Assembly (NCBI RefSeq): GCF_026914265.1
Contig: NC_069133.1
Location: forward strand, 4,957,985 to 5,021,984
Source of the DNA: Mya arenaria
Lineage: Eukaryota; Mollusca; Bivalvia; Myida; Myidae
Reading direction: 5' to 3'
Length of the DNA: 64,000 nt
Shown here: positions 1 through 61,001 of the stretch, piece by piece
Layout: every line of letters starts with the position of its first letter
How positions within the stretch are numbered: position 1 is the stretch's first letter
The notes under the pieces: model-generated
The model's input: the letters and a program-made list of their open reading frames with translations, nothing else
Database searches by the model: none
Told to the model about the DNA's origin: nothing
Program-made: the position numbers and the translations under genes

Positions 1-610
1 GTTTTATTAGTCAAGGCTCATTTTGAGCATCTGACATAACAATGCAATAAACAATATAAACATTAAAACATATTTAAAACAAAATAATAATGATAATGCG
101 TTAAGTGGAATTTACAATATTTGTTTTTAAATAAATCACAGATGGAGAATGAGACATATTATTATGATTATAAAAATATATAATTTTATTTTGTAAAGAA
201 AGGCCTCCGGCCCATAAAACAACACATACAATACAAAACATAAAGGTTTTAGATTTGTGATTTCTTAATGACAGTCATTTTTTCTTACCTTTTTGTTTCA
301 TAGTTACATTTACGAAGAATGCTATTTTTTTATTCGATCATCGTTTAGACTTTGCATAAGATTTATGAAGTTTTTGAAGTCTTGCCTACCCGTGTACCAT
401 TTATAGATATAAAATTGACTTTCTTGCCTGAATCTGTTACATTGAAAGAATAAATGAAATTCATCTTCTACACAACTGATATCAAAATTAATTAAGCAAT
501 ATCTACACACTCTATTTTCCCTTTTGATACCCAAATGTCGACCAGTCTCAATAAACAATTTATAGCTAGAACATCGAAATCTCGCTAACGATTTCCTCAC
601 ATAAAATGGT
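1..610 (-). mobile_element. LINE retrotransposon, 3' end with ORF2 C-terminal tail
   Basis: The minus strand encodes about 92 residues (322-600) with the Cys/His-rich tail seen after the reverse transcriptase of many metazoan non-LTR elements: ETGRHLGIKRENRVCRYC, then VEDEFHLFFQC. This is followed by an AT-rich 3' UTR reaching the window edge. No reverse transcriptase core is present, so the copy is 5'-truncated near 610. The first ~130 bases recur near 57 kb in the same orientation, which confirms a dispersed repeat. The clade cannot be fixed from this fragment. Confidence 0.7.
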
Positions 611-689
611 AGATTAATACATAAATATTTTTTTTGGATTTAACAAAGTTTTAAAATGCTTACATGTGTCACATCGTGTTGAGTCTCCC

Positions 690-905
690 ACATGTTCCGA
701 CTGACGTAAATCCATCAAATCTGGTCTTGTTAAACGTTTCTGAACGACGTACATCCATCGTATAATTAGAATGTTAAACCAGCGACGTACATCTATCGCG
801 TAGTCAACTTTAAGTGACTTCCAACCCGTGATCAAAAACACACGCGACATATATCCATCGCGTGATCAGAACATTAGCGACGTACATCTATCGCTCAAAA
901 TGTCT
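690..905. repeat. Short irregular minisatellite (GACGTACATCYATCG core)
   Basis: The core GACGTACATCTATCGC or a close variant recurs about four times with unequal spacing (near 746, 783, 845 and 879). No coding potential is evident. Confidence 0.5.
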
Positions 906-1261
906 GATGATTGTTCTGATCATAATGGTTATCATTGTGAAAACAGAAATTGAAATGTGTCATCCATTTCAACTTACATACAGATAAATAAATAATTAAA
1001 AATCAATTCATATTATTTTGGTCATTAATCATGTAAATTGACATACCTCTTCGTTTTCTTTCATTACCAATGTATCCTTCCTTTTCATACACTTTTCGTT
1101 AAAACTGCATATAAATATTTACTATACTTGTTTTGTTAAAACTTTACGTCTGTACCCTTTTCGCTTAAACCTCGTTATGAATGTACTGGATTCGCTGAAT
1201 ACTGCGTCCGGAATCTGTTGGGCCCATGACGGGAGTTTATGTGTTGGATGAAATTAGTCAT
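906..1261. other. AT-rich spacer, nothing recognised
   Basis: No convincing ORF, splice-bounded exon or repeat is seen between the minisatellite and the large satellite. Confidence 0.5.
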
Positions 1262-4200
1262 CCAACATTGCATTGTTCCACGATATATGACACTGTCTAC
1301 ACAACATTGTATCGTGCCCCTACATATGGAACTATCTACACAGCATTTGATAGTGTCCCAATATATAACACTGTCTACACAACATTGTATCGTGCCCCTA
1401 CATATGGAACCATCTACACAGCATTTGATAGTGTCCCAATATATGACACTGTCTACACAACATTGTATCGTGCCCCTACATATGGAACTATCTACACAGC
1501 ATTTGATAGTGTCCCAATATATGACACTGTCTACACAACATTGTATCGTGCCCCTACATATGGAACTATCTACACAGCATTTGATAGTGTGCCAATATAT
1601 GACACTGTCTACACAACATTGTATCGTGCCCCTACATATGGAACTATCTACACAGCATTTGATAGTGTCCCAATATATGACACTGTCTACACAGCATTGT
1701 ATCGTGCCCCTACATATGGAACTATCTACACAGCATTTGATAGTGTCCCAATATATGACACTGTCTACACAACATTGTATCGTGCCCCTACATATGGAAC
1801 TATCTACACAGCATTTGATAGTGTCCCAATATATAACACTGTCTACACAACATTGTATCGTGCCCCTACATATGGAACCATCTACACAGCATTTGATAGT
1901 GTCCCAATATATGACACTGTCTACACAACATTGTATCGTGCCCCTACATATGGAACTATCTACACAGCATTTGATAGTGTCCCAATATATAACACTGTCT
2001 ACACAACATTGTATCGTGCCCCTACATATGGAACTATCTACACAGCATTTGATAGTGTCCCAATATATGACACTGTCTACACAACATTGTATCGTGCCCC
2101 TATGTATGGAACTATCTACACAGCATTTGATAGTGTCCCAATATATAACACTGTCTACACAACATTGTATCGTGCTTCTACATATGGAACTATCTACACA
2201 GCATTTGATAGTGTCCCAATATATGACACTGTCTACACAACATTGTATCGTGCCCCTACATATGGAACTATCTACACAGCATTTGATAGTGTCCCAATAT
2301 ATGACACTGTCTACACAACATTGTATCGTGCCCCTATGTATGGAACTATCTACACAGCATTTGATAGTGTCCCAATATATGACACTGTCTACACAACATT
2401 GTATCGTGCCCCTACATATGGAACTATCTACACAGCATTTGATAGTGTCCCAATATATAACACTGTCTACACAACATTGTATCGTGCCCCTACATATGGA
2501 ACTATCTACACAGCATTTGATAGTGTGCCAATATATGACACTGTCTACACAACATTGTATCGTGCCCCTATGTATGGAACTATCTACACAGCATTTGATA
2601 GTGTCCCAATATATAACACTGTCTACACAACATTGTATCGTGCCCCTACATATGGAACTATCTACACAGCATTTGATAGTGTCCCAATATATGACACTGT
2701 CTACACAACATTGTATCGTGCCCTTACATATGGAACTATCTACACAGCATTTGATAGTGTCCCAATATATGACACTGTCTACACAACATTGTATCGTGCC
2801 CCTATGTATGGAACTATCTACACAGCATTTGATAGTGTCCCAATATATGACACTGTCTACACAACATTGTATCGTGCCCCTACATATGGAACTATCTACA
2901 CAGCATTTGATAGTGTCCCAATATATAACACTGTCTACACAACATTGTATCGTGCCCCTACATATGGAACTATCTACACAGCATTTGATAGTGTGCCAAT
3001 ATATGACACTGTCTACACAACATTGTATCGTGCCCCTATGTATGGAACTATCTACACAGCATTTGATAGTGTCCCAATATATAACACTGTCTACACAACA
3101 TTGTATCGTGCCCCTACATATGGAACTATATACACAGCATTTGATAGTGTCCCAATATATAACACTGTCTACACAACATTGTATCGTGCCCCTACATATG
3201 GAACTATCTACACAGCATTTGATAGTGTCCCAATATATGACACTGTCTACACAACATTGTATCGTGCCCCTATGTATGGAACTATCTACACAGCATTTGA
3301 TAGTGTCCCAATATATGACACTGTCTACACAACATTGTATCGTGCCCCTACATATGGAACTATCTACACAGCATTTGATAGTGTCCCAATATATAACACT
3401 GTCTACACAACATTGTATCGTGCCCCTACATATGGAACTATCTACACAGCATTTGATAGTGTCCCAATATATGACACTGTCTACACAACATTGTATCGTG
3501 CCCCTATGTATGGAACTATCTACACAGCATTTGATAGTGTCCCAATATATAACACTGTCTACACAACATTGTATCGTGCCCCTACATATGGAACTATCTA
3601 CACAGCATTTGATAGTGTCCCAATATATGACACTGTCTACACAACATTGTATCGTGCCCCTACATATGGAACTATCTACACAGCATTTGATAGTGTCCCA
3701 ATATATGACACTGTCTACACAACATTGTATCGTGCCCCTATGTATGGAACTATCTACACAGCATTTGATAGTGTCCCAATATATGACACTGTCTACACAA
3801 CATTGTATCGTGCCCCTACATATGGAACTATCTACACAGCATTTGATAGTGTCCCAATATATAACACTGTCTACACAACATTGTATCGTGCCCCTACATA
3901 TGGAACTATCTACACAGCATTTGATAGTGTGCCAATATATGACACTGTCTACACAACATTGTATCGTGCCCCTATGTATGGAACTATCTACACAGCATTT
4001 GATAGTGTCCCAATATATAACACTGTCTACACAACATTGTATCGTGCCCCTACATATGGAACTATCTACACAGCATTTGATAGTGTCCCAATATATAACA
4101 CTGTCTACACAACATTGTATCGTGCCCCTACATATGGAACTATCTACACAGCATTTGATAGTGTCCCAATATATGACACTGTCTACACAACATTGTATCG

Positions 4201-4892
4201 TGCCCCTACATATGGAACTATCTACACAGCATTTGATAGTGTCCCAATATATAACACTGTCTACACAACATTGTATCGTGCCCCTACATATGGAACTATC
4301 TACACAGCATTTGATAGTGTCCCAATATATGACACTGTCTACACAACATTGTATCGTGCCCCTATGTATGGAACTATCTACACAGCATTTGATAGTGTCC
4401 CAATATATAACACTGTCTACACAACATTGTATCGTGCCCCTACATATGGAACTATCTACACAGCATTTGATAGTGTCCCAATATATAACACTGTCTACAC
4501 AACATTGTATCGTGCCCCTACATATGGAACTATCTACACAGCATTTGATAGTGTCCCAATATATGACACTGTCTACACAACATTGTATCGTGCCCCTATG
4601 TATGGAACTATCTACACAGCATTTGATAGTGTCCCAATATATGACACTGTCTACACAACATTGCATCGTGCCCCTACATATGGAACTATCTACACAGCAT
4701 TTGATAGTGTCCCAATATATAACACTGTCTACACAACATTGTATCGTGCCCCTACATATGGAACTATCTACACAGCATTTGATAGTGTCCCAATATATGA
4801 CACTGTCTACACAACATTGTATCGTGCCCCTATGTATGGAACAATCCACCCAGCATTGCATAGTGTCCCTATATTTGAAACCATTGTGCCAC
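1262..4892. repeat. 78-bp satellite array with 468-bp higher-order structure
   Basis: About 46 near-identical 78-bp units are arranged head to tail. Each unit is two diverged 39-bp halves, one containing ACACTGTCTACACAACATTG and the other GGAACTATCTACACAGCATT. Variant units recur in an ordered pattern with a six-unit (468-bp) period. A GTGCCA variant lies at 1585, 2521, 2989 and 3925 (spacings 936, 468, 936), and a GGAACCATC variant at 1406 and 1874 (468 apart). Because 78 is divisible by three and the unit lacks stops in several frames, three reading frames (two plus, one minus) stay open for over 1200 codons. I regard them as by-products. The end units (about 1262-1290 and 4840-4892) are degenerate, as expected at an array edge. 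Confidence 0.97.
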
Positions 4893-5254
4893 TCTTAATC
4901 CCAAATGAGATGTACCACAATTAAAACAAATGTTTTACATTAACGATAATGATAATATAATATGGCAAACGTTTCTTTTGAATGATATCGTGTTTTATGT
5001 GAAAGAAAGGTGCATACAATACGGTATTTCTACCCTATTATACGACAGTTAATCACGGCAAATCTTAAAAGACTAACAAGTCATTCAATATATGTGCGTT
5101 TCCAGCTATTAAATACAAGGTAACAATCCTCTTATCAGTAATAAGTATTTCATCAATGCATTTTTAGTAAGCAGTTAAAGATTTATCACTCAAAATTTAT
5201 GTTTGTTTAACGTATGTTTTTATCGATTTTAAATAAGAGTGTCACTTTTATATA
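4893..5254. other. AT-rich spacer between satellite blocks
   Basis: No gene or repeat is recognised between the 78-bp array and the degenerate 64-bp array. Confidence 0.5.
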
Positions 5255-5530
5255 TTTGAAACTATCCACATAATACTGTTTAGTGCCACAATATATGGAA
5301 CTAGTTTATGCCTTGTGATATATGAAACTAACCAGACAGCACTGTGCCCCAATACAAATATGAAACTATCGTGTTTTGATATATATGAAACTATCCACAC
5401 ACCACCTTATGGTGGCCCAACATATGAAACTTCTGTGTCGTGATATATATAGAACTATCCACACACCAATGTATGGTGGCCCACCATATGAAACTACCGC
5501 GTCATGATATATATGGAACTATCCACACAC
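5255..5530. repeat. Degenerate left part of the 64-bp satellite
   Basis: Several diverged copies share ATATATGGAACTATCCACAC with the block at 7405-8345 and with one 39-bp half-unit of the 78-bp array. The block is interrupted at about 5530 by a hAT element. Confidence 0.8.
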
Positions 5531-5867
5531 CCACGGGCGTACCTAGGTCAAAATCTAGGATACGCACAGTCTAGGGGGTCCGGGGGCATGCCCCCCCCGG
5601 AAAATTTTGAAATCCAACATCGCATTTGGTGCTATCTAGGGGCCTTTTGGCACGTATAAAATCATACAAATAGATGAATGTTTACCTTAATAAACATTGT
5701 TAGTCCCGATATTTTTTTAAAAAATTCTCCAAAAATCAATACTTGTATTTGAATTAAATAAACAAAAAGATCTGGGGTGATGGGTGGCGTCTCTATTTAA
5801 CATCCAATCCGCTGAATAATTGAGATATTGCGTTGACCAGAAAGGCTTGCGCACCTCACCGGTATAT

Positions 5868-6227
5868 TTAACCACATTCATGGTAAATGTTCATCAAACC
5901 CAGGCCTGACATTCGCTCAGTTGTCATGGTACTCCTCAAATACGTTTTGACTCGACGCATTGTCGAAAATGAGCGCTCATCCGTGGCCGTTGCTACTGGC
6001 ATACACAACAAAACCATGAGGCAGATCCTTATGTTAGGATACGATGCCTCAGTAGCTACGTCCAATGCTTTTTCCAGGGTTGAGTAGGGAGCAGGTGAAG
6101 TTACAGTCCACTTCGCTGTCCAACGTTGACACTCTCGCTCGAAAGTCGGCTCGTCATCTGGCAGGTCTAACTTGAACTCCTGGAATATTTCTATCGTTAC
6201 GGCATGGGTGAGACCGTCGACCTGCAA
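5868..6227 (-). CDS. hAT transposase C-terminal dimerisation domain (last exon fragment)
   Basis: This is the C-terminus of a hAT-superfamily transposase, the region that mediates dimerisation of the DDE enzyme. About 117 residues can be read from a splice acceptor (TTTATTTGCAG) whose exon begins at 6221 on the minus strand. The diagnostic block is VATATDERSFSTMRRVKTYL followed by RSTMTTERMSGLGLMNI, matching the ERSFS..RRIKTYLRSTM signature of hAT enzymes. The stop lies at 5868. The catalytic core and BED finger were not found within the element, so this is a remnant. The open frame on the opposite strand (5887-6087) is a shadow. Confidence 0.85.
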   Translation of the reverse strand: MQVDGLTHAVTIEIFQEFKLDLPDDEPTFERECQRWTAKWTVTSPAPYSTLEKALDVATEASYPNIRICLMVLLCMPVATATDERSFSTMRRVKTYLRSTMTTERMSGLGLMNIYHECG

Positions 6228-6480
6228 ATAAATCTTTATTGTATTTTCGCACTTATGCCATTTAAATATATGCGGCCAATGATCCGGTGCTTATTAGATT
6301 AAAGGGTTTCATTTGTTTCATTAGGATTTTCTTATTATTGTGGAAACGATCAATAATTATTTAATTTTAATATCTTTAATGCATGCGCATGTAAATAAGT
6401 TAGCATAAATGCTACACGATTATTTGGTAAAAACGCACATGATGAATCAGCTCACATACAGTATTAATGTATTCAGATAT

Positions 6481-6680
6481 TAACCCGTTCACTGGCAGGC
6501 AAGTCGTGTACATGCGCGATATTTTTTCAAATTCCGATTTTGTTTCCTCACACTCCCTCGACCTTTTGGTAATATCATTGTGAAAATGTCAAACAACTTG
6601 GATCCAAATGAGACGTCTCATTCGGATCTAAGTTGTTTGAATATATAACGATACTCGGGGTAAGGCAGTGAACGGGTTAA
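6481..6680. mobile_element. piggyBac-type MITE (200 bp, TTAA-bounded)
   Basis: The sequence begins TTAACCCGTTCACTG and ends CAGTGAACGGGTTAA, a perfect 15-bp inverted terminal repeat that includes TTAA on each side. TTAA target sites and CCC-starting termini are characteristic of piggyBac elements. A second internal palindrome is centred near GAGACGTCTC at about 6619. There is no coding capacity, so it is non-autonomous. Confidence 0.8.
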
Positions 6681-6957
6681 AACCTACATGGTATTACCAA
6701 TGTAGTTTTATGATTGGTGCATTGCATCACAAACTATTCGTTTTATTCCTTGATTACACTACCTTTGGAGGCAGCAGATACTGTGCCTTGTACCGTCCAT
6801 TGCCGTTCAACAGCCGTGCGTCTAGATCAACAAGCAAATGGTCTACGAACGAGCCGAGATAGTAAACAAACGGTTGTGGATAAGCTAAGAGAAGAATTTC
6901 GATAAGGATGTTTTAATAAACCATGCAAGATATATCATAACATTATATAGTACTGAC

Positions 6958-7178
6958 CTGGAAGGGAACTTATACTGGTGAACGTTGTTCCAAGTTGCGG
7001 TTAATAGCTCTTTCTTCTCACTGTCGTCTACTTTTTGCCCGAAAATACCACCGTAAGGCGGATTAAATGTCTGTTCAGTCATTTTTAAAAGTCCCGCCTT
7101 GTAAACATCATTCGGATCATTTACCAGGAGGTCAACAGGATCCACACCGATTTGGCAGGTTATGGGAAAATAACGCAT
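6958..7178 (-). CDS. Unrecognised exon-like ORF inside the hAT element
   Basis: The minus strand is open for about 70 residues (including TEQTFNPPYGGIFGQKVDD and LLTATWNNVHQYKF) up to a plausible donor (CTTCCAG then GTCAGT) at 6957. It lies upstream of the transposase exon on the same strand, so it may be another piece of the same element's ORF. I do not recognise a domain. No start codon choice is defensible. Confidence 0.3.
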
Positions 7179-7404
7179 GTATAACTTAAGTTGAGATCTA
7201 CATCGTGATCACCTTTTTTGGGAAATTTAGGTATTACACTATAAAAACCAACAAACGATAAAATTCTGACGTAATTATTTCTTATACCCCCCCCCCCCCA
7301 GCCTTTACTTTTTATTGCATTTTTGGAACTTTTATTTTTTCGCTTTTTTCTGACGAAGTGTACGCATTGGCGTACTGGCGTATGCCTGGGTACGCGCCTG
7401 CCGG

Positions 7405-8345
7405 ACACACCAATGTATGGTGGCCCACCATATGAAACTACCGCGTCATGATATATATAGAACTATCCACACACCAATGTATGGTGGCCCACCATATGAA
7501 ACTACCGCGTCATGATATATATGGAACTATCCACACACCAATGTATGGTGGCCCAACATATGAAACTACCGCGTCATGATATATATGGAACTATCCACAC
7601 ACCAATGTATGGTGGCCCACCATATGAAACTACCGCGTCATGACATATATGGAACTATCCACACACCAATGTATGGTGGCCAACCATATGAAACTACCGC
7701 GTCATGATATATATGGAACTATCCACACACCAATGTATGGTGGCCCAACATATGAAACTACCGCGTCATGATATATATGGAACTATCCACACACTAATGT
7801 AAGGTGGCCCACCATATGAAACTACCGCGTCATGATATATATGGAACTATCCACACACCTGTGTATGGTGGCCCAACATATGAAACTACCGCGTCATGAT
7901 ATATATGGAACTATCCACACGCCAATGTATGGTGGCCCACCATATGAAACTACCGCGTCATGATATATATGGAACTATCCACACACCATTGTATGGTGCC
8001 CCACCATATGAAACGAAACTTCTGTGTCTTGATATATATATGAAACTATCCACACAACACTGTACAGTGCCCAACTACTGTGTCTTGATATATGTAGCTA
8101 TATACACTCCACTGTAGAGTGCCCCAACATAAGAAACTACTGTGTCTTGATATATATGTAACTATCCACAGGACACTGTATAGTAAGTACCCTTATATAT
8201 GAAACTACTGTGTCTTGATATATATGAAATGATCACCATAATATGACAATGAGCCCTAGGTTATATGAAGCTATCCACACAATATCGTTTTGCACCTAGA
8301 TAGATGAAACCATCTACTCACATTGTATCGAACCACAAATGTTTA
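7405..8345. repeat. 64-bp satellite, right block
   Basis: About nine regular 64-bp units (7405-7990), each with CACACACCAATGTATGG and GAAACTACCGCGTCATG, grade into degenerate copies to about 8345. The first 39 bases of the unit resemble one half of the 78-bp satellite unit, so both arrays derive from one family. Confidence 0.9.
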
Positions 8346-8501
8346 AAACGGACCACTTAGCATTGTATCGAAGAACAATATGATATCATTTCTTTCCAAC
8401 AAATTGTATTCTAACGGAATTTGAACGAATTTCCAGAACGTTGGGCATGTGCTATTGCTAAAATCCCAACCCCCATTGAGCCTTTATCGTTATACTTTCA
8501 G

Positions 8502-10031
8502 ATGAGAAGTCAAGGTTACATGAGATATATCAGACTCGAACAGCAACAGAAGCCGGAGAGGCTGTTCTGGACTCCTTTGGTAGAAGCTCTGCTCCAAATA
8601 AGTGGATGTCCTTCCTAAATGCACTTGAACAAGAAGGTTCGTTAATTTTAGTTAAGGTTTTGATATATACGTATAGTTATGAGCTTCTTATACATTCATA
8701 TCTATATGTTCTATGTCAACATTATTGTTTAATATGCATTTTATGAATCTTATAAATAAATGATTATAATGACCATTTTATCACAAGCGCAGACCAAAAA
8801 AACACCTACCTTCGCTGATGATAAAGCGAACACCACAAGGAAATGTGTATATCCAATCGTTTTAATTTCGTTTAACAGTAGAATGAATACTGGGATGAAA
8901 TCCAATAAGAATCACAACATAAAATTATACTTTTAAGGAAAATTGCTTTCTCACAATGTGACGTTACTGCCGGTTAAAAGACGTCACAATTGGTAATATT
9001 TCAATAGGTCAATTCCGGTAAAATTCTGAAAGCGGAACGTGTTTTATTAAAAATCAAGTTGAAATATAATGTTTTCCTCTCAAAATTTAGATGGTAAATT
9101 AATAACTTTATTAAAAAATATCTCTATAATAAGCACACAAAGAAAAACACATGTATGACTTACTAGAGTATTACTAAATAAGAGAATCATTCTTTCAAAT
9201 AAACTATATACAAACATGCGTGGTTATATGTTTTCTGGACAATAGAAATAGAGCAATGTAATATTACACATCTGTTATACTATAAAAATGATGGTTATAT
9301 TGAAATGGAAACAAGATTTACATGTTCTACTTGAACATATGTGCTTGGGTTTACTTCTAATTCGTATGCACCTATTTTACACTGATCCATTATGCACTTT
9401 TTTATATCTTTTTCACATTAAGTATGTATCACTATATATACAAAACAACAAAAGATCAAAGCAAACACAAACTTTTTAAACGATGTTTTATACTTAATAT
9501 GAATTAGCCATACATTCATTTTTTTACGATAACCGATCCGGTAATGTTTTAATTGTATCTACGAGTTGGCTTATTGTGGATGACAAGCCAAACAGATAAC
9601 AACAATTGTTACATTCTTAACCTTTGTTTGTCACATTTTCAGAGCTTGTATACGTCAAGTCTTTGCTGGAAGAAGACAATGTAGATTCGGAAGAGGACAG
9701 GTTAAGAGGTCGAAAACGGATACGACTCGTTGGTCCAGATTTATTGAAAAGTATCAATCCAATAGACCTAATAAGCAGCCTTGTTTCGAAGAAGGCTATA
9801 ACAGAAGACGACCGCGATGAAGTGCTAAATCTATGTCATACCAAAAGCAGATTGTATGGTCTAATGTGCCTTTTGCGCAGAATGCAGACCCGATTGCGTC
9901 CTGCGCAGAATGCAGTCTCAAATCGACCAAGGGAATGGCATTACGCGTTCCTTTGCGCGCTTCGGGATAACGACTACACCTCGGAGTGTAATCTTTTAGA
10001 ACCGGATTTTGTGGCGGTGTTTTTATTTTAG
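8502..10031 (+). CDS. CARD-only paralog of the RIG-I-like receptor N-terminus (partial, two exons)
   Basis: Two exons encode tandem CARD-type death-fold sequence, the signalling module through which RLRs engage MAVS-like adaptors. Exon A, 8502-8636, follows acceptor TTATACTTTCAG; it is 135 nt with phase 1 at both ends, the same length and phases as exon 2 of the RLR at 41859-41993. Exon B, 9643-10031, reads EELVYVKSLLEEDN, then LVGPDLLKSINP, KKAITEDDRDE, REWHYAFLCALRD and LLEPDF, and stops at TAG. The RLR equivalents are [47 protein letters not shown] and LEPDF. Exon B fuses what the RLR splits between exons 3 and 4. No counterpart of RLR exon 1 (start codon, first 44 codons) was found; satellite DNA lies immediately upstream. 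No helicase remains were seen downstream. It could be a decoy or adaptor gene whose first exon is far upstream, or a dead partial duplicate. Homology is strong; whether it is expressed is unknown. Confidence 0.72.
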
Positions 10032-32989: not shown

Positions 32990-33600
32990 AGTTCTAAAAA
33001 AACACATTTATTTCCTTACCAACAATATACCGCACACAAACACTCATCTGTTCTGTTACACTAATATCAGTCATTTCATCAACTATGATGCCAAAAAACT
33101 GGCATTTTGAAACATCACATACAATCTTTTCACGTATATAGTCAACCATACATGTAATGTTTCCATTTGGAATTGCGATGTATACTTCGCATTCTTTAGA
33201 CTACTTTTCAGATGGTTGGAAAGTTGTTCATCATGTCTGCTTATCCAGTTAATAAAGAAGTTAAAATTGCTACCCTCGCGGTTTTGATCTTTTAACCACC
33301 TCCCTCTAAGAGGAATTTCTCGTGATGAAAGTGTTATAATAACTGGGTGAACTATGGCAATAAGAACATGTCTGTTTTCGAATAATTTATCGGAATAAGC
33401 TGTGCTCAACAATGCATTTATCGATTCTGTTTTTCCTGTACAAACTTTTTTAAATATCACACTAGCGGTTACCTCTTTAATACACATGTGTTTTAGAACT
33501 ATTGTGACTTGGTAAGATACCTATTTTAACCCTTAACAGCATTTTCCAATCTTTAAATGGTGAACAATTAAATTCTATGTGCCTAACATCTGCATGTGCA
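32990..33600 (-). pseudogene. Decayed hAT transposase (ZMYM1/DUF4371-like)
   Basis: Reading down the minus strand from about 33580: FKDWKMLLR, then (33487-33150) IPLRGRWLKDQNREGSNF, NFFINWISRHDEQLSNHL and NAKYTSQFQMETL, matching the DUF4371 region of hAT transposases and ZMYM1-like host proteins. After a shift of frame near 33150 the next block is CDVSKCQFFGIIVDEMTDIS followed by EQMSVCVRYIVGKE, the expected catalytic neighbourhood (IVDE then TD). A stop near 33530 and the frame change mark it as broken. A donor-like GGTAAG near 33015 might instead end an exon. This is DNA-transposon debris. Confidence 0.75.
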
Positions 33601-35053
33601 AACAAAAATTCACTATCGGCATACCGTAGCCAGTTACAGTGCGTCTCCCTAGAAATGTTGAACTTTCTCTGTTTAATTGCAGGTTACTTGGAACAGTTTA
33701 ACATTGAAGTTAAGAATGTTAAATATCTCTTCATACGAAAACTGTCTATGACCAAAACTGCTAAATCCGGACAAACTGTAAAGAGTGTGGAATAAAACAT
33801 TGGAGCAGGCAAAGTAGTTACGACATGAAGTGATAAATACCGGTGCTGCTTGCTTTCGACTTTTTTGCATCACACAGGCGTTTTATTTATAGGTCATACT
33901 AGTTAAATGCAGTTCTTCTCAATGAATCATTGTCGGACCTGGACCTTAGTATCACTTTGTGCAAGTCGTAATGATTTTGTAACCCTTACGTTCATGGCCG
34001 TAAATCTTGACAATGCAGAGGATCATATCAATAAAACCGTCTGCGCCAACCACTCAAAATGTGTCCAGGTCCATCACAAACCCCGATTCTTGACCTGTAT
34101 GAAGCGATGTCTACCAATGTAGGGTAAAATTCATGCGGAATCTTTTGAACAATAGCGCGCAAAAATTGCTGTCGAACGGAGTCGGACAAGGCTCAATAAC
34201 AGCGAGGATCGTGCCTGAACTTGCCTTAGCATCTATAGCTGTTACTACGACATAATACATAATTGTTCTTAGTTCTGTTATATTGTGGTGGTGTCTCGAA
34301 TTCAGATGCAAATTTATTACTTTTCATTACCTTTTTTTATTTTTGCATTGCAAATTTTAACCGATGCTGCTGCCTCGGTGTGCCTCAGTGTGGCTACGGC
34401 GCTGTACAGTAGCAGTTGTAATACCGATGTTTGTAATGCTACTCGCAGTTTTACGAAATGTTTACGATTACCCTTTAAGTTATTTTCATGAAAGAACACA
34501 GCACTTTACAGAATGGGTAGTTGTTTCGTCAACATATCAAGTTTACAGTTCGTCAACCTTATTATAATTAGCAAATAATGTTATCACTGTGTTCACTGTT
34601 CAGTGCTCAAATTCATCTTACTTTTTGTAAATGTATGTATGGATATAATAAGGACTAACTTCTTTGAATGATCTTGCTTTCTTATGATTGAGGAATTTGT
34701 ATTTATTGACCACCATTTCTAGACAGCATCTGTTTTGAAGTTCAATGCTTCGTGACTCGTCGCCAACCAACAGAGTAAAAACGGCGTTGAATAAACAATT
34801 GCCATCACCGGTGCTACGGATAGCTATCTTGGTGGTCGCCTGATATTCCCGCAGGTATGTATTGGCTATTTCGTCCTGTTGGTGTGTTTCAAAATCAGAA
34901 TGAAGTCTTGTTTGAATAGGTATGTCTTTGACAAACAGTTTTTCCTTTTTACTCCATTTAATAAACTCTCAACTCCTATATCTGAATCACGCCTAAGTAA
35001 GCACTGGTTTTCGTTATATTATAGAGGTAATATTATTTATTTTATTATTCCAG
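33601..35053. other. Mixed spacer, no supported gene
   Basis: Several overlapping short frames lie on both strands (34285-34567 especially), none with domain evidence. A donor at 34855 (CCCGCAG then GTATGT) precedes the next exon, but the reading frames do not join without a stop. Confidence 0.4.
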
Positions 35054-35453
35054 ATATGTCTTCATGAACGCCGGAGGAAATGACATCGATGGGCACTGTC
35101 GACCCGAAGAGATCGCTACCAATATAATGAGGCTAGTGTCTGAATTGAAGCAGCGTGGAACAGAGCGTGTGTGGGTGTCTGCCATCGTCCGGAGAGGAAG
35201 ATTTCCGGCACATACGACAATGACACCAACAAAAATCAGAAAATCAGTAAATGAAAGACTTAAAAAGGCTCTTGTGGATGATTATGTCGACATGGGGAAG
35301 CGTCTGACATTCACCAGACATTATGATAGAGACTTAATTGGTTCACCCGGGCAAAAGGGAAGGTGGCATGGACGTGTTTCTTGGAACAGTCCTAAGGTCA
35401 TTCGCAAAAACGCAAAGGGCAGACAAGCGAAAAGTCCTCATGAATGTGGATAA
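35054..35453 (+). CDS. SGNH-hydrolase-like terminal exon (partial)
   Basis: After acceptor TTTATTATTCCAG the frame reads YVFMNAGGNDIDGHC, then LVSELKQRGTERVWVSAIVR, and stops at 35453 after about 132 residues. The GGNDI block with a following helix and a VWVSAIVRRGRF strand resembles block III onward of SGNH-fold esterases (GxND, oxyanion-hole Asn). The usual C-terminal D-x-x-H is not clear; RWHGRVSWN is the nearest candidate. The exon with the GDS serine block was not found upstream. In molluscs such domains often sit in multicopy or transposon-linked genes, so it may be a fragment. Confidence 0.45.
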
Positions 35454-41022: not shown

Positions 41023-44000
41023 ATGGCTTCATTTGAAGAAAACATGGAATCGCGGGTAGAACTGCGGGTCAGACACTGGAGACCAGCTATTGTCCAATGC
41101 ATCCAGACCCATCAGTTATGTACAAGGCTAGCTTCTAAAGGGATTATAACGGATGGTAGGTCCTGATGCCCCAATTGCTTGACACGTCACAGAATTAAGC
41201 TAAGATTCCTATTTCTTTTTGGTATATATTTTTTAAAGTTAATCATGATAAACTTCTTGTGTTTATGTAAAATCAAATAAAAGCATGTCATTTTCTAAAT
41301 GTAATAAGGATTTAAACCTATTCTGCTTCATATTTTTCCACGATTTTGTGTCTATATGCAATGTTTACAAATATTAGAGCACATAGCCGGTTGTCTCTTA
41401 CTAGTGTTAAGGTTGTTACGTAGCTCAGATATGGCCTATTTGATATAAAGATAACGTTATTCCATCAGGTGATTTAAAAGAAAATATTCGCTAATAATTG
41501 CGTAGATCTAATGCACAATTTCCATATTCATAAATACGGCATACTTGGTGAGGACCTGATATATAACATATAATTATACTGTTTAATGCATATCATGATA
41601 ATGCTATACATATACATATACAAATACTTAACATGCAGATAATACAACTGTTACAGACATATAATAATACAGTTATATGCATAGAATACAATTGTGTACT
41701 GTATTTAATAGTACTCTATTATACAGAGATTTTGTTACATGCTGATAAAAGTCATGCATGTAATACTAATAAATACATGTTTATATTATAATACTGATAT
41801 ATTCATATATCATCTTTGTTTAATGAATATAATCAGCTGTAAACTTGAACCTTTTCAGCTGAAAAAACCCGGATATGTGACCTTTATCGGAATAAATCAT
41901 TTTTTGATGCAAGTAACGAACTGTTAGACATTGTGATCAGGAAAAAACAAGCACACAAGTGGGCTCTTTTTTTGGAGGCACTCGATGACGAAGGTATTTT
42001 AAGCATGTGATACGTTCCATTATTATTTTGGTAAAAATTGTTTTACTAGTAAATAAAGATAGAGATTAAAAAAAGATAGTGAGTACTTTATATCCATGTT
42101 CATATTTTTTGTGATAGGTATGGAATATGTGAAGTCGCGTTTAATAGCATCAGATATAGAGTTACCAGAAGAGAGAGAGCACGGAAAGACGATGCTTCAG
42201 TTTTTTGGCCCTGACCTAGAAAAGCAAATTGATGAGCCTCTTAAAATAGCAAGATTATTAAAGAATAAGAAGGTTATAACTGATGTTGACTTGCAAGAAA
42301 TAACGAATTCGACTCTGCAACGGTCAACAGATCTTGCTGTGCACATTCTTTTAACAAGAATGCAATGCCATAAGAGGTATGAACGTTTTCTTACTTGAAT
42401 AATATAATAAATGGATGAACACAGCTTGTCATTGATTGCTTGGAAAGCTTTACGCATTTGGTTTTTCTTAGTTCTTGAGCTCGAATGCGACAAAAGCCAT
42501 AAAACAGTAAGCTTATACAATACAGAAGAGTCTACTGAGAGCACATTGCATTATTAAACCTCCACACATCGGTTACTGCCGTACAATAACTACTGCCACC
42601 ACGCATGTCATGTGGTGATAATCAATATCACGTGACGTCATTCAAAAAGGTAAAAAAACTCCTTTGAAACACCTTACTTTTTTAACTTTGAAAACAACGT
42701 ATCTAGATGGAACATTAATAATTTATTGCATACAAACTTGTGACAAATACGTAGTTTTCAAAAAAAAGGTTATATCCTTAAAATCCAGATATTTTTCACT
42801 TGGTGATAGAGTTCTTCTTTCCTTATGAAGGGAGATCACTACGTACTAGTTTTTGCATAAGAATGCAGTGAACGACATGTCAACTATCATTCATCGAACA
42901 GGCTAAAACACTGATATGCGTTAAAAATGTAGTTATGTAATGTATTATATTAACTTATTTAATTACATTTGAGTCTGCTTCCTGTGTTAAGGCCAATACT
43001 AGTTATCATTTTGAGATGTCTTGACCGTAGTCTGCTTAATTGAGCGTTTCAAATTTAAGACCAGCAGAGTGGTACTATGAGTTCCTGTGTTCACTCCGCG
43101 ACGAAGGCTACCAACATCTGGCAAAACAATTGGAACCAGATTTCCTTAACAATCCATCTGCGTGTATGCCTAAATTTGGTAAGATGTCATGGATTGAATT
43201 GAACAGAAATAAATAGCGTGGTATTCAAAGAATAACAAAGTTATGTCTTCTATGGTTCTAAGTTAAACAGTTTTATAGTTGCACCATCAAAATTCACATG
43301 TTTAGATATACGTTGTTATACTCAAACCTCTTAATTCAGGTCCTATTCAACATTCAAAAAAAGAGAAAGAGCACGTGCTTGAAGGTAATCTCAAATATTT
43401 ATATTTTAGCAACAATACCAGTTCTATTCCGTTTAAAAATACTTATGCATGTCTATTTTTTCTACTGATACTACTGCATTATTTACTTTAAGTGTTGTTC
43501 AGTTGTCTTGTTTTTGTTTATATTAGCAGAAGAACGAAAAGCATAATAATAGAAAATAAATCGCTTCTGCATTTTTAAACATCAGTTATCTAAGTTTATC
43601 GCTCAATAATTACATATGATAGTTCTGACATCTTCACCTTAAATACTTAAGATAACATGGAGTTCGAGCCAAGCAATGACCTTAACGCACCAGCCCCATC
43701 TACAAGCGAAACATTTGAATCGAAGTCGGAGACAGAAGTTCAAGAAAAAATACTTCAGAAGGAAACCGATAGTGGAAATCTAATTTATAGCACGACAGAT
43801 ACTGAAAACTTAAAGGACCTGAACATAAAGCCTGAGAGAATGAAGTCGGTTGAGGAATTTAAAGGTATTTAAAGTATAGTGTTTAATTCTGTAGTAAACC
43901 GATATTATGAATTAAAACAAATCAAGTTGATTATTTCCATGCGCTTCGCGTTCTTTTTCAGTATGACTTATTAAGTATAAACATGGTAATGAAAAAAAAA

Positions 44001-47000
44001 CAACAGTGAGAGTGGTCATTTTATCAACCAGTGCTATTATTGAACAGTTGCAATCACACCAAGGCTGCTGTTTACAAAGTTTGAATATAAAAAGTGCATA
44101 CAAAAGATTCTCCTCACACATGTTTTGCTATGATTTCAGTGTAGCGTACTTTAGTACTTCACTTACTATGACTATTATGGTTTCAGACAAAACAAATGAA
44201 TCCGACGAGGAAAGTGAAGAAGAAAATACGCTTGCTTCTGATTACGAAAGCTCAGATGCTGAAGAAGAAAAACGTATGTACTGATATTAAACAAAGTTGA
44301 ATGAAGTATATACACATATACAAATAAGACGCCATGCCATTGCAGAGTAGTTCATTTGAAGAAAGTCCGTGATAACATCATATTGAAAAGCACAAATTGT
44401 TGAAAAACATATGAATCAGAAACTGCTTTCTGTTCTATACTGTTTATTTTTAGCAAAACCTCATTCACTAGAGTTGAGGGATTATCAAATAGAGCTTGCA
44501 GAGGACGCTATAAAGGGAAGGAACACGATAATATGCGCTGAAACCGGAACCGGAAAGACTTGGGTTGCTTTGCATATTGTTGCCAGCCATCTTGCAGCAG
44601 CTAGCAATTGTAAGCGTTTTAATGCATTTACGGCACAAGCGACGCGGCCAAAAGTTTATAATTCATGTAATTGCTCTGCTGTTGCTGGTTTTCACCTCAA
44701 GACCCATTGTTCTCTCTTGAAGCATTGATATAAATCTGTTCCACCTCTATAGTCTATTTCTGAATTTTTCACATCTTCTATATACAAAAAATATAGAATA
44801 CTACGCTTGTATTTTGAATACTAGTACCTACAACATCTCATTAGACATGTTCTTAAAACACGATGCATTAACTATTGAAACTTTTTTTGTCATACATTTA
44901 TGAATTAATTTATAAACGTTAAAACACAGCAGGGAAACCAAGGAAAGTAGTGTTTATGGCCAGAACAGGCGTTTTAATCAAGCAACAGGCGAACAGGTTC
45001 AAACGCTTTCTACCCCAATACCAGGTTAGACTTAACGTGTTCGATCGATTAACTGAAGCTCTTAATGTATACTTACTTTAATCAGAGCCTTGGTTGGTTG
45101 TTAAAAGCACAATGTCAGATCTAACATTGTTTAGGGCGAATACGTTATTAAATCATATTTGGCAAATACCTTTTTTTGCCAAAACACATAGTATTATTAA
45201 GACAAGAACACTTTTTATGATATGAGCCGCAGTAGCCTTAGACCATATTTTATACAATACGTTGCGTAAAATTAATTGTTTAATACAAATACGCGTACAA
45301 CATGATCTTGCATTTGTATTTTAGACCAAACTAATTACTGGTGAGGAAGAGACCATATTTTATACAATACGTTGCGTAAAATTAATTGTTTAATACAAAT
45401 ACGCGTACAACATGATCTTGCATTTGTATTTTAGACCAAACTAATTACTGGTGAGGAAGAAGATTCCCGAATGATTGACGCCTTTGTTCCCAACTATGAT
45501 ATCATGTGTTTCACACCGCAAATACTGGTAAACAACCTCGATAGCAAAAACATTGAAACCCTCAGCAAATTTTCGCTGTTGGTTTTCGACGAGTGTCACC
45601 ACACAAGGGGAGATGAGCCTTACGCCAGACTTGCTCGAAGGTATCTCGTAGAAAAAGGAAGACAGACAGCAGGATTGCCACAGGTAAATGGCACAATTGT
45701 TCATAGTATAAATAGTTTCGGTTCTTGGACATGTATTTGATGTTAATTTGCTAAATAGTTTTCTGAACTTAATTAACTTGTCAGTTTCTTAATTATATCC
45801 CCCTTCGAAGGAGAGGGGTATATTGCTTTGCACATGTCGGTCGGTCGGTCTGTCGGTAGAACAAAGCTTGTCCGAGAAACAACTCAACAATTCCTTGACG
45901 TATGGTCATCAAACTTGGCATGCAGGTTTGGCCTGACCAGTAGATGACCCCTGTTGACATAAGGGCTCATCGGGTCAAGGTCACAGTGACCTTTAATGGT
46001 AAAAGAATTTTAAAGCTTGTCAGAGTGATAACTCAACAATGCCTAGACCTATGGTTATCAAACTTGATATGGAAGTTGGGCCTGACCAGTAGATGTCCCC
46101 TATTGTTTTTGGAGGACATCGGGTCAAGGTCACCGTGACCTTGAATGGTCAAAGGTTGTCCGAGTGATATCTCGACAATGCCTGCACCCATGGCTCTCAT
46201 ACTTGACTTGGAGGTTGGGCCTGACCCCTATTGATTTAAGGGGTCATTGGGCCAAAGGTCAAGGTCACAGTGACATTGAATGATCAAAGGTTTTCTGAGT
46301 GATAACTCATCAATGCCTACACCCATGGCCCTCAAACTTGACTTGGTGGTTGGGCCTGACCAGTAGATGACCCCTATTGATTTAAGGGGTCAAATGTCAA
46401 GGTCACAGAGACCTTGAAAGCAAACTAGGCAATTTCTGAACCTATGGTCATAAAACTTGACATGAAGGTTGGGCATGATCAGTTTATGACCCCTCTTGAC
46501 TTTGAGGTCATCGGGCCAAAGTCAAGGTCACAGTTACCTTTAACGCAAAAATAGCAAATCTTCTCCCAGTGATATCTCAACAATGCCTGCACCTATGATC
46601 ATCAAACTTGACATGGAAGTTGGGCCTAACCTGTAGATTACCCTTATTGATTTAAGGAGTCATCGGGTCAAAGGTCAAGTTCACAGTGACCTTGAATGCG
46701 AAAATGTTTCAAGTGATAACTCGACAATGCCTGCACCCATGGCCCTCAAAACTTGACATGGAGTTGCGTCTGACCTGTAGATGACCTCTTGTGATTTTTA
46801 GGTGTCATTGGGTCAAAGATGTTAGTCACAGTGACCTTGAACGAAAAAAGCTTGTCTGTGTGATAACCTGTCAATGCCTGCACCCATGGCCCTCAAACTT
46901 GGCATTTAGGTTTTTGGTGACTCCTATGGATTTGGAGGTCTTAGAGTCAAAGGTCATGGTCATAACACACTATATCCTCACACTTTGAATCTTAAAACTA

Positions 47001-50000
47001 CCTTAATGGCATCCAACTCCAGTGACAAATCAGCTGTCATTTCGATCCATGCATATTTCATTCAATTGTCCATATAATCCTGACAACATGGCGCTCAGGG
47101 TGGCATAATGTTTGACAAACATATCTTGTTATGGATACATTTGTGTCAGCAATGAAAACTACAGGGACAGGCTCAGTATTCAAAGTGAAATATAAAAAAA
47201 ATTCATATGCGTAAGGTACCCAAACGACACTGAACTAAAACACCACAATATCAATGTGTCAATGGGTGTTGTTTACAGATGATTGGTCTAACAGCGTCAG
47301 TCGGTGTCGGGCCATCGAGAACCGTTGAGGAAGCTGTTGATCATATTCTGCACATTTGTGCTAGGCTTGACACAACACTTTTATCAACTGTTGAACGGTG
47401 CAAGGAAAGCCTACTGAAATGGGTCAATATACCGAAAGAAGGTTAGTTCATTTCAGCTAATTACATACTACGTTAAGCTTATAGCTAAGTGTGTCGTCTT
47501 GCACAGTATCACTATTGATAGCAGGGTAAGCCCAAACTGCATCCGCTTGATTTCTTTCTTTTCTTGAAATATAACTCGACCAAACGTAAAGTTCAACCAA
47601 GTTAAGATATATTTTTTGAATAACAGAAGTTGTAAAGATGGTTACACGGGTCCCTGACCCTGGTAGGGACATCATGCTAAATGCGATGGATGACACAGAA
47701 TCGTTACTTGAAGGTGAGCTTCCAATAGCTTTGTTTACTAGTCGGTTTAAAAGTTAAATGTTGTTTGTAAATCTTGTCAATATACGTTTAGATAGGATGT
47801 GATGATAGTATTGGTGTTGCTGAATCGATAATCGATTCGACTTGAAATAAGGGTTTTGATTTACTTTAGAATAATATCAAATGTGTATAGTTCTGTTTAT
47901 TGTGTGTGACTTTATAATGAAGCAAAAAAGTTCATAATCTGGAAGCTGCATTCATGACCACGTTCAATTAATTCATGAGTTTGTTTGCTATAAACTGTAA
48001 TTGTTGTTTCTGATTCTGATAAACCATGCTTGAAAAGGTTTTAAGAGTCTTTAAATATTTAACTGACCTCTCTACATTATATATTGGGAAAATTTTCTTA
48101 GCTGTACAGGAAGGTGAAAGTTTAGTAAGAACAAAACATATGGTACAGTCTTTAATATGATAAATAGGCTTAGAATATGCTACTTTGGGCAAATATGTAG
48201 CCACATGGATTATAGATCTACAACATCGGATGACGTTTTAAACGACGATTATATATGGTAATTGTTTATAACTTGATGAGAGACATCAATATGGTTTTCC
48301 TGGACCTTCTGGATCATTGAATATGACGTGTTCATACCATACATTATTCCGCCTCAACCGTAATATGTGATGTTAAATCCGATGCAATTACAATTATTGC
48401 AAATAAACCACCAACCGGGACTATTGTTTAAATATACGGTATACAGTTTTAGCTACTGAAATATTAAAAGTAAAACCAAACGTATAATTCCAATTACAGA
48501 TATGGCGTTTTTACAGCCTGATCTTACTGATTTAATGATAGAGAAAAAGCCAGCGGAAAAGGAGTCACAGGCTTATAACAAGTGGACTGGTGATATTGAA
48601 AAAGCGGCGCAACTGAACGTAACAGATCACGAAACGGCTCGAGACATCAGCTCCTGTGCACGATATTTGAATGTACATCATTATGTTGTCATTTATTATG
48701 TATTTCCTTACATCAGGCATGTATAAAAAGTTTGTGTTGCAAGCTTCATTAGTAGTTGAATGTTTTCAATGTTACAAAATGTGTGATTGTGATAAACAAT
48801 AATCTTCATGTACGCATATATATATTTTCTATATTCAAGCAAACCATTGCGTATGCACACGTTCTTTTCAGGTGTACAATTCCGCTCTGGAAGTCAACAA
48901 CCTTTTACAACTGAAACACGTCATCAAGTACTTGGCAGATAAACATAACCTTGAAATGCAAGGGAAAAGCAAGCACACAGATCAAGAAAAAATTCTATTC
49001 AAAAAATTGTTGGGTAAGTGTTACAAATTGTTGTATACAATATGTGAGAGCGAACGAACTGCTGAAAACTTTTGAATGTGTATTTCTTTAAAACAAAATA
49101 TAGCTTTTTTATTTAACAGAAGGCACAAAGTGATATTCATATAAGTATTCTTTAACAGATGTTCAGAAAAAATTGTCTGCTAGAGCAAGGGAAAAGGACA
49201 CTGAAAATCCAAATGTGAAAATCGTCAGCGATCAATTGCGCCAGATGATTCAGGAAAAGGGGGATGACTCGCGAGCAATTGTGTTTGTGAAGGCACGGGC
49301 TACATGCAGAGCACTGGCAGAGTATATCGATAGAGATCTTCGAGAAATTGGTGTCAGAGCTCATTCACTATATGGCCAACAAACCCGCGGAGCGGACGAA
49401 GGTAAGAATCAAATAAAACAGATTGAGAATGTCGATTTTCGTACAAACTCGACGCTTTAGGACAGCCTTGGTGTTAGCGTTAATGTTGTCGTCGTCGGAA
49501 ATGTGCTTAAAGCTCAATATTATTCATTCCTCAAAACTATTACGATATTCACATGAAGATTAGTACACAATACAAGTGGTATTAAATAGCAAGGCTCATG
49601 ACTGTGTCTTAACAAAGTGTCAAATTTGTAGCCGTTAACACATAAGGGGAAATGAGCATTTGCATACTCTTGCGCACTAAACCTTTTGTTTAATATATAA
49701 GTATCTCTACTTTCACAAATGATTACAGTTGACATTACGGAAGAATGTTTATGGTTGTCAATTTCATTTGATGTAATGTAGTATTTTAAAAAGTCAAACT
49801 AAGTCGCTACATTTTTTTATAAAGATATTTAAATTTCTGTGTGGTATGTCTGTGATGTTTGTCCGTTGTTTGTTTCCGGTTCAGTTTCCGTAATGCCCTA
49901 GCTTTGTATCGTGATTAAAGTTTGCCTACTTGGCTTGTCCATGTAGCTTCAATTGTATAGCATCATCCAGTAATTAAGCCATATTTTATGACCAAAGTAA

Positions 50001-51049
50001 CACTTGTACTATTGGTATTGTTAAAAATCCTACAGGTATGACTGAGAGCGTTCAAACCGAGACTGTAGAAAAGTTCAGGGAAGGGCATTACAAGGTGATG
50101 GTTTGCACCTCCGTCGGAACAGAGGGCATAGACGTTCCTGATTGTAACATCGTGGTGAACTACAACTACTCCGGGGATGAAATAACCAAGATACAAATGA
50201 AAGGTCAATAGATCTCTGTTCACAGTATATCCAACTTCAATCCACTGCTATTAAATACTTTCGAAATGTCTTTCATTCAGTCTCTAGCCAGGCAAAGATG
50301 AAGCGAAACATAATATACGTATTTTGTGGTATATACGAAAAACGGTTTTTAGTTTAACACACACAAGACCGTTTCATGATAAATAGTAACATACATGTAT
50401 TGTTTATGGTATTTTGTTTCTATTCTCAGGTCGCAGCAGGAAAAAGGGCGCCACTCATGTTATCGTTGGAAGCGACAAACAAGTGGAACAGGAAATGGTG
50501 AACGCGTACAAAGCAAACATGATGTATAAGGCGATGGACGATTTTAAGCGGCTTAACCCAAAGAACATTGGGTATAAGGTTGCTATTTACCAGAAGGAGG
50601 AGATGCAAAAACATAGATATAAGATGGAATACGAAAAGGCTAAGAAAAGCAAAATGTCGGAAGATGATCTGGAAATACTTTGCAGGAGATGCAACACAAA
50701 GGCCTGTCTGGTCTCTGACATTCGAAAGCTTGGACATGACCATCTTGTCTTGGACAAGAGTTTTGCTAACAGAATCACCACGAAACCGCACAAATCCCCC
50801 AAAAAGTACGACGGCATAGAAAAGAAATCTAAAATGTTCTGCAAAAAATGCCCGTTGGACTGGGGCATAGTTGCAGAAAGGGATGGCGTCGACCTTTGGA
50901 TTTTGAAAATACAATGCTTCAAATTTCGGAACATGCGTTCTGCCGATGTTTCAGCATACAAGAAGTGGATAGAAGTTCCATATGCTGTCCCCGAGATGAA
51001 CCTGGAAGACATTCCAAAGTTCTTTGGAACTGTAGACGAAGTAGCCTGA
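41023..51049 (+). CDS. RIG-I-like receptor: two CARDs, DExD/H helicase, C-terminal RNA-binding domain
   Basis: A cytosolic viral-RNA sensor of the RIG-I/MDA5 family. Seventeen coding exons join in phase to 1028 codons: 41023-41155, 41859-41993, 42118-42376, 43060-43178, 43340-43384, 43652-43864, 44187-44273, 44454-44609, 44930-45024, 45435-45683, 47279-47441, 47627-47713, 48500-48672, 48872-49013, 49159-49401, 50036-50203, 50430-51049. Residues 1-210 form tandem CARDs; 215-330 an acidic, Ser-rich linker. The helicase starts [13 protein letters not shown]; motif I AETGTGKT (about 359-366), Ib FTPQIL, II DECHH (about 466), [40 protein letters not shown]. Motif VI is IQMKGRSRKKG, where MDA5 has QARGRAR, so the first Arg is Lys but GRxR is kept. 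The C-terminal domain has the zinc cysteines CRRC (907, 910) and CKKC (960, 963) followed by DWGI, as in RIG-I and MDA5. Overall length is like MDA5. Intron 10 holds an inverted-repeat element and its acceptor is duplicated. Start chosen for the ATG after the last acceptor. Orthology to RIG-I versus MDA5 cannot be settled here. Confidence 0.95.
45241..45460. repeat. Exact 110-bp tandem duplication over an RLR splice acceptor
   Basis: 45241-45350 and 45351-45460 are identical. Each contains the acceptor (TTGTATTTTAG) and the first 26 bases of exon 10. Using the distal acceptor (exon from 45435) keeps the frame to motif II. Using the proximal one (exon from 45325) reads into the second copy and meets a stop within about 23 codons. 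The proximal copy also contains a donor-like ACTG/GTGAGG that could end a 16-nt microexon. Confidence 0.98.
45793..47109 (-). mobile_element. Inverted-repeat element with internal tandem units (copy 2, in RLR intron 10)
   Basis: The reverse complement of the family at 16627-17860: it starts ATTATATCCCCCTTCGAAGG, then (GGTC)n, repeated units with AGGTCACAGTGACCT and CAGTAGATGACCCC, and ends near CATGGCGCTCAGGGTGGCATAAT. The termini are less well kept than in copy 1. It lies between the RLR exons for helicase motifs II and III, antisense to the gene. The plus-strand frames at 45944-46988 are repeat translations. Confidence 0.85.
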
Positions 51050-51318
51050 ACTGTTTTTATTCAAATGGAACTTTGATCAGCTTTCCTTCGACATAAGTCG
51101 ATACATTTAGAGATAACAGCTCTTTATTTATATATCTGAATCTGTGGACGGTGTATATTATGAATGTATTAGACTTGATTATTAAACTTGTATTGTTATT
51201 ATCTAAGGATCAGCAGTGTGTATGCCCTTATTTTGCGTATTTGCTTTATGTTTTGGATGTAAATCAGTCTTTTAGTGCAAACTATCAGTATTGTTTTGAA
51301 ATTCTATTTATTAAGTTT

Positions 51319-51324
51319 AATAAA
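51319..51324 (+). other. Candidate RLR polyadenylation signal
   Basis: AATAAA lies 270 bases after the RLR stop, in an AT-rich 3' region with ATTTA motifs. It is the first clear hexamer downstream. Confidence 0.4.
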
Positions 51325-52765: not shown

Positions 52766-52769
52766 AGGG

Positions 52770-52895
52770 GGAAAAATGGCCCTCGGAGTAATTTAAGAGG
52801 TTCGAGGAACGGGTCTTTAGGCACTCGGAGTGATTGAGGAGGTTCGAGGAGCGGGTCATTAGGCACATGGAGTGATTGAGGAGGGAGCCAGGAGG
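52770..52895. repeat. 42-bp minisatellite, about 2.5 copies
   Basis: Units share GGCACTCGGAGTGATTGAGG and GGTTCGAGGAGCGGGTC. The 42-bp period keeps the minus frame open but this is not taken as coding. Confidence 0.8.
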
Positions 52896-54477: not shown

Positions 54478-54480
54478 CGA

Positions 54481-55640: not shown

Positions 55641-55655
55641 CCAAAGGACAGCTAT

Positions 55656-56884: not shown

Positions 56885-56989
56885 TATTAATAACCTTAAA
56901 TCAAGTTCGTTGTCTTAGGCGGTGGCACAGACTTTCTCTGCTGGAGAAAGGATATCACTCAGTAGGAAGAAGAAAAAAAGCAAGTTTTA

Positions 56990-60260: not shown

Positions 60261-60263
60261 TTA

Positions 60264-60691: not shown

Positions 60692-61001
60692 TTATTTATA
60701 ACATGGTACATTGTATTCACACACTATGATGGCTAATTTGCAATCTAATGATCGAAAGTACACCATACATAAACTTATTACAGCTTGTGTATTTGTTCTT
60801 TATTTAAACTAAAATCGGATAATAACTCAAAATGTGAAATCTTTGAAGACCGAACAATCTTGTTTATTGTACTATTTACATTACAAAACCTTTTTAGAAT
60901 CCATTTTAATATGGGGTCACCAGGCATATCAGATTCACTTATTTGTGGTTCTGATACCTTAAAGGCGAACAATATAGGTTAATGCCATTCTTTTTTTAAA
61001 G

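Follow-up and report, generated by a model that had tools for sequence, protein, structure and literature searches.

The window, by which we mean the whole 64,000-nucleotide stretch of Mya arenaria DNA that was analysed, has animal-like DNA with a GC content of 34.5% and contains a domain-complete RIG-I-like receptor (RLR) gene. Upstream of this gene and on the same strand lie two candidate exons, A and B, that would encode RLR-like CARD sequence. The distance from the stop codon of exon B to the RLR ATG is 31.0 kb, in agreement with the original prediction of a CARD-only copy upstream of a full-length RLR. The features of the two loci are as follows.

5358-8226, no strand: stretch of 64-68 bp satellite copies, interrupted by an hAT fragment, whose end is about 275 bp from exon A
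8502-8636, forward strand: exon A, 135 nt, phase 1 at both ends, corresponding to RLR exon 2, which encodes the later part of CARD1
8606-8608, forward strand: first in-frame ATG of the visible exons, read from the translation and the sequence
8637-9642, forward strand: A-B intron of 1006 nt with 28% GC
9643-10031, forward strand: exon B, CARD2, equivalent to RLR exons 3 and 4 fused, ending in TAG
10017-10018, forward strand: weak alternative donor (GCG/GTGTTT), phase 0, the use of which would bypass the exon B stop
41023-51049, forward strand: domain-complete RLR, with CARD exons followed by helicase and C-terminal exons
41023-41155, forward strand: RLR exon 1, first part of CARD1
41859-41993, forward strand: RLR exon 2, 135 nt, phase 1 at both ends
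42118-42376, forward strand: RLR exon 3, most of CARD2
43060-43178, forward strand: RLR exon 4, end of CARD2, ending in phase 1
43651-51049, forward strand: remainder of the RLR, comprising a probable linker exon, DEAD, Helicase_C, RIG-I_C, RIG-I_C-RD and the stop

In Pfam searches of the RLR, its CARD exons match CARD_2, and its later exons, joined by eye beforehand, match DEAD, Helicase_C, RIG-I_C and RIG-I_C-RD; the linker exon gave no Pfam match. Within this gene, a segment of about 110 nt, including the start of an RLR helicase exon (GACCAAACTAATTACTGGTGAGGAAG), stands twice in tandem (45240-45349 and 45350-45459, recognized by eye). This tandem repeat (45240-45459) is either a local duplication or an assembly fault.

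At the candidate locus, exon A is preceded by TTTCAG and followed by GTTCGT, with a codon split after its first base at both ends. Exon B begins at position 9643, directly after CACATTTTCAG, and its frame is open up to the TAG at 10029-10031. When spliced, A and B form one intact frame, which has 173 residues if the split first codon is not counted, and these 173 codons run without disruption, as had been claimed. The splice sites were scored against a generic table of human type, with four RLR donors and three RLR acceptors as comparison. Specifically, the exon A donor scores 1.17 (-0.35 to 3.97 for the donors of RLR exons 1-4), while the acceptors of A and B score 2.11 and 3.03 (-7.05 to 2.69 for the acceptors of RLR exons 2-4). 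The candidate sites, in or above the RLR range, are therefore plausible by sequence. A retrocopy was rejected on the presence of the A-B intron with these plausible sites, although the CARD2 intron is missing.

Sequence comparison qualifies A and B as homologues of the N-terminal RLR CARDs. The BLASTP alignment of A plus B with the RLR CARD exons (105 bits, E 3e-33, 62 of 169 residues identical) begins with the first complete codon of RLR exon 2 and continues as far as LEPDF in exon 4, verifying that exon B aligns through both CARD2 exons before its TAG. In a separate comparison, protein identity between the candidate and the RLR CARDs is 38%. Exon A alone is 32-34% identical to RLR exon 2 (tblastn) and equals it exactly in length and phases (135 nt, phase 1 at both ends), as originally described. 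Human RIG-I exon 2, which encodes residues 36-80, is likewise 135 nt long. A chance match was rejected: local scores of 270 for A plus B and 77 for exon A alone stand far above the maxima among 2000 and 5000 shuffles (56 and 40, respectively).

The candidate matches Pfam CARD_2 at E 2.6e-6 with 27.8 bits, narrowly missing the cut-off of 28.2, and RLR exons 2-4 match it with 38.9 bits. With CARD2 alone, the candidate scores 20.5 vs 28.6 bits for the RLR in CARD_2, and slightly higher than the RLR in PF00619 CARD (16.5 vs 14.7 bits). The proposal that the candidate CARD2 fits CARD_2 better than that of the RLR proved wrong, RLR exon 3 alone having been compared. Exon A alone (ORF 8480-8746) shows no Pfam match at E ≤ 1. 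The AlphaFold model of exon B is poor, with a mean pLDDT of 53.4; a Foldseek search with this low-confidence model ranks RIG-I CARD structures in the top three places (best E 0.09) and returns no match at E 0.001 or better. In PDB sequence searches, an unrelated lectin (E 0.076) ranks above RIG-I CARD2 (E 0.15) for the candidate; RLR CARD2 alone retrieves one MDA5 chain at E 0.99, and the RLR CARD exons retrieve nothing at E ≤ 10. A two-row profile search of the PDB places the CARD11 CARD first (E 0.03) and RIG-I at E 0.042. No relative was found among the viral and prokaryote contigs scanned, collections that are uninformative on bivalves.

Sequence divergence indicates that the split from the RLR is old and that synonymous change is close to saturation, because third positions and fourfold sites are near background and introns and flanks are not collinear. 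Specifically, among 164 aligned codons, 82 first, 100 second and 55 third positions are identical (50%, 61% and 34%), while composition alone predicts 25-28% per codon position and about 26% for position 3 (positions 1 and 2 vs 3, p = 4e-6). Only 2 of 17 fourfold sites are identical. The NG86 method gives a dN of 0.65; dS was not obtained, and hence no dN/dS ratio. Introns and flanks show no collinear similarity to those of the RLR, the best blastn piece being 28 nt long (E 0.008) and in a non-equivalent place. A recent duplication was rejected on the near-background third positions and the non-collinear introns, verifying the earlier view that the duplication is not recent.

Neutral evolution of the candidate was simulated with 1500 runs per step and an assumed indel rate of 0.12 per substitution. 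The frame stayed free of stops and frameshifts in 45% of runs at d = 0.01, 22% at 0.02 and 2.2% at 0.05, and not one of the 1500 runs was free of them at d = 0.1 or any higher step; with indels left out, so that stops alone count, the frame survived in 28% at d = 0.05 and 8% at 0.1. Furthermore, nine neutral versions of RLR exons 2-4, made at d = 0.5 without indels (32-43% identity), contain 5-13 stops each, and none of the nine keeps a Pfam match at E ≤ 1. Unlike these versions, the candidate keeps its CARD_2 match (27.8 bits). The simulated frame loss, together with the loss of the Pfam match, shows that the protein was under selection for most of the divergence, and that this selection preserved both the frame and the CARD sequence. 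The original suggestion that an old, open frame hints at selection is thus borne out as a signature of past selection, visible in the codon positions, the neutral simulation and the neutral versions. This signal could reflect a product that was either already short or still a complete RLR.

An old pseudogene was rejected on the nearly nil neutral frame survival, the 0 of 9 neutral versions with a Pfam match and the codon-position pattern; the hallmarks of a pseudogene, frame disruptions and long neutral drift, were not found in the 173 intact codons. The dead partial duplicate that had been considered at the outset therefore fails as an old death but may stand as a recent one: death within about 0.05 substitutions per site is compatible with the data, because neutral frame survival is still 45% at d = 0.01 and 22% at 0.02.

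Exon B differs from RLR CARD2 in that it lacks the intron that splits the latter, so that the equivalents of exons 3 and 4 are fused, and it carries nine extra residues at the junction, where the DNA is a short repeat with GCGCAGAATGCAG present twice. The repeat stretch (9860-9925) ends in GTCTCAAAT, a sequence similar to the final bases of RLR intron 3, GTTTCAAAT (43043-43060); this likeness is possibly a leftover of imprecise intron loss, or chance. After LEPDF, the candidate diverges at once from RLR exon 4 and reaches its stop within 7 codons. The DExD/H helicase and RIG-I_C-RD that are hallmarks of an RLR are absent from the candidate, which stops after CARD2, and tblastn detects no helicase, linker or C-terminal relics in 1-41000 or 51101-64000.

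These ends of the candidate bear on the proposal of a recently dead remnant: an RLR or CARD gene that functioned through most of its history, in which expanding satellite and transposon sequence then removed exon 1 and a deletion removed the 3′ part, and which is now unexpressed with its frame undecayed. Such a remnant, which we consider possible though somewhat doubtful, is consistent with the abrupt departure from RLR exon 4, with the neutral frame survival at d = 0.01 and 0.02, and with the failure of a low-powered search to find exon 1, in whose expected place lies satellite with an hAT fragment. However, both exons are intact in frame with plausible splice sites, and a recent truncation without physical deletion should have left helicase relics nearby, where tblastn found none.

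No equivalent of RLR exon 1 was detected by tblastn in 1-8500 or by Pfam in the parts of 1-8501 searched, both searches being of low power. The Pfam search covered the three forward frames of 1-1260 and 464 of 850, 465 of 849 and 476 of 849 residues of the frames from 4851, and the rest of 1-8501 was covered by tblastn only. The negative result carries little weight, as even the exon 1 peptide of the RLR itself has no Pfam match at E ≤ 0.1. Most of 1283-8226 consists of 78 and 64 bp satellites and the hAT fragment, and the satellite and hAT stretch at 5358-8226 occupies the place where exon 1 would be expected. The 78-bp satellite (1283-4878; 46 copies, 96% matches) is open over roughly 1220-1240 codons on each strand; such frames arise because 78 is a multiple of 3, and they are unlikely to be genes. 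The hAT fragment, at 5536-7404 between copies of the 64-bp satellite, includes an ORF on the reverse strand (5868-6290) that matches Dimer_Tnp_hAT at E 1.3e-10.

The visible CARD content is the later part of CARD1 and CARD2, with the first part of CARD1 not found in this low-powered search. From a putative start at 8606, the predicted product has 139 residues, comprising the end of CARD1 and CARD2; two more in-frame ATGs in exon B both lie within CARD2. In place of the tandem-CARD protein of the original prediction, the visible exons point to a CARD2-type protein.

The two exons could instead belong to a larger gene, either with an exon 1 that escaped the search or is located beyond the left edge of the window, which would give constitutively signalling tandem CARDs, or with unrecognized downstream exons reached through the weak donor at 10017. 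The satellite may just fill a long intron, and the window starts only 1.3 kb left of the satellite. Moreover, N-terminal domains of lophotrochozoan RLRs are reported to change by exon gain, loss and exonization (PMC8998645). The GCG/GTGTTT donor scores -0.80, close to the -0.35 of the real RLR exon 2 donor, and 10.6% of the GTs in the window score at least that. However, this donor is in phase 0 and RLR exon 4 ends in phase 1, so that it cannot enter the RLR's next exon in frame, and the low-powered tblastn search of 1-8500 gave no exon 1 candidate. We regard a larger gene as unlikely.

That A and B serve the RLR gene itself as distal alternative 5′ exons, A being spliced either to B as a short CARD isoform or to RLR exon 3, is highly improbable. 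The strand is the same, the phase 1 at the end of A equals that at the start of RLR exon 3, and none of the six inter-locus ORFs tested reaches the Pfam cut-off, so that no other host gene is established between the loci. However, this would require a 33 kb intron spanning the start of the RLR itself, and the divergence between A and exon 2 is large for mutually exclusive exons. Between the CARD loci, weak matches below the cut-off were recorded to a GDSL/SGNH hydrolase (35031-35453, forward strand, E 1.6e-5), an OTU protease (34618-34968, reverse strand, E 0.0014) and DUF4371 (32994-33200, E 0.0016); the OTU and DUF4371 frames are possibly transposon-borne.

Judged from the DNA itself, A and B copy exons 2-4 of an RLR-type gene; the copy is ancient and has evolved separately. 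Our best reading, which we hold tentatively and by analogy, is that this RLR-derived CARD-only paralogue acts as a decoy at RLR/MAVS assemblies. The locus would be a small putative gene whose product contains CARD2 and no more than part of CARD1, barring a first exon that escaped the search or is located beyond the window. The product would be unable to sense RNA, because it is without the RNA-binding part, and would act through CARD-CARD contacts alone. It would join or cap the CARD oligomers of neighbouring RLRs, or occupy MAVS, and the net effect would most likely be dampened signalling, as with the caspase-1 CARD-only proteins (COPs) and the human RIG-I splice variant.

RIG-I CARD2 is reported to contact the MAVS CARD (PMC6652118), and oyster RIG-I CARDs are reported to have bound CgMAVS, if CgMAVS kept its transmembrane part, while full-length CgRIG-I-1 did not (PMC5557890). 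Furthermore, a human RIG-I variant without exon 2 is described as a dominant inhibitor (PMC3900705, PMC5536018). By analogy, a product with CARD2 and an incomplete CARD1 is closer to inhibitors than to activators; were an exon 1 present, activation by the intact free CARDs would be more likely. Several points count against the decoy reading: the inhibition by the splice variant is reported not to have been reproduced in duck (PMC3900705), zebrafish MDA5b suggests that intact CARDs without the other parts can activate (PMC5536018), and the RIG-I CARD has been called constitutively active (PMC6652118). In the candidate itself, an exon 1 or start codon upstream of A was not found at low power, with satellite and transposon sequence located there, and its CARD2 scores below RLR CARD2 in CARD_2, with a poor model and no Foldseek match at E 0.001.

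Bivalve RLRs are described as many and often in tandem arrays (PMC8998645). The candidate shares with the two-CARD RIG-I-like receptors (V1 type, PMC8998645) the CARD2 sequence and the 135-nt phase 1 exon 2 seen in the neighbouring RLR, and adjoins an RLR on the same strand; it differs in that it is without helicase, RIG-I_C-RD and CARD2 intron, and the first part of CARD1 was not found. COP/CARD16, INCA/CARD17 and ICEBERG/CARD18 are likewise CARDs without an effector part beside the parent gene family, and are reported to lie beside CASP1, most likely by duplication (PMC3775265). As for the COP attributes of CARD sequence only and adjacency to the parent family, the candidate frame, in its visible exons and with the weak donor at 10017, holds CARD and then a stop, and it lies 31.0 kb upstream of the domain-complete RLR on the same strand. 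However, the parent of the COPs is CASP1 and that of the candidate an RLR, the function of the candidate is putative, and its split is older: reported identity to the caspase-1 CARD is 97% for COP and 53% for ICEBERG (PMC3775265), vs 38% for the candidate and the RLR.

The human RIG-I splice variant resembles the candidate in its CARD2, its damaged CARD1 and its pathway, but is without exon 2 only, whereas the candidate keeps exon 2, has no recognized exon 1 and is without everything after CARD2. The splice variant keeps the helicase and RD. Truncated MAVS isoforms are also described as shortened proteins that restrain their own pathway (PMC5474743), although they come from another gene and the candidate CARD is RLR-like.

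Lophotrochozoan RLR types are reported to differ in what precedes the helicase, with diverse N-termini, and the survey that describes them sorts them by N-terminal domains (PMC8998645); its abstract, Results and Discussion make no mention of a CARD-only gene. No RLR-derived CARD-only gene in molluscs is named in the listed titles of open-licence papers. The more specific claim, that the candidate is a selected one-CARD decoy (CARD2 and at most part of CARD1) of RLR-MAVS assembly that arose independently of the primate caspase-1 COPs, is on the unlikely side. A copy under selection that retains the CARDs without the helicase would be the opposite of RLRs that vary their N-terminus. If true, it would provide a COP-like system for RNA sensing, independent of the primate caspase-1 COPs, and a direct test of whether encoded decoys tune RLR signalling in molluscs. 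One possibility is that the candidate is a small gene with a dampening or tuning role in antiviral signalling; another is that it is what is left of a lost second sensor gene.
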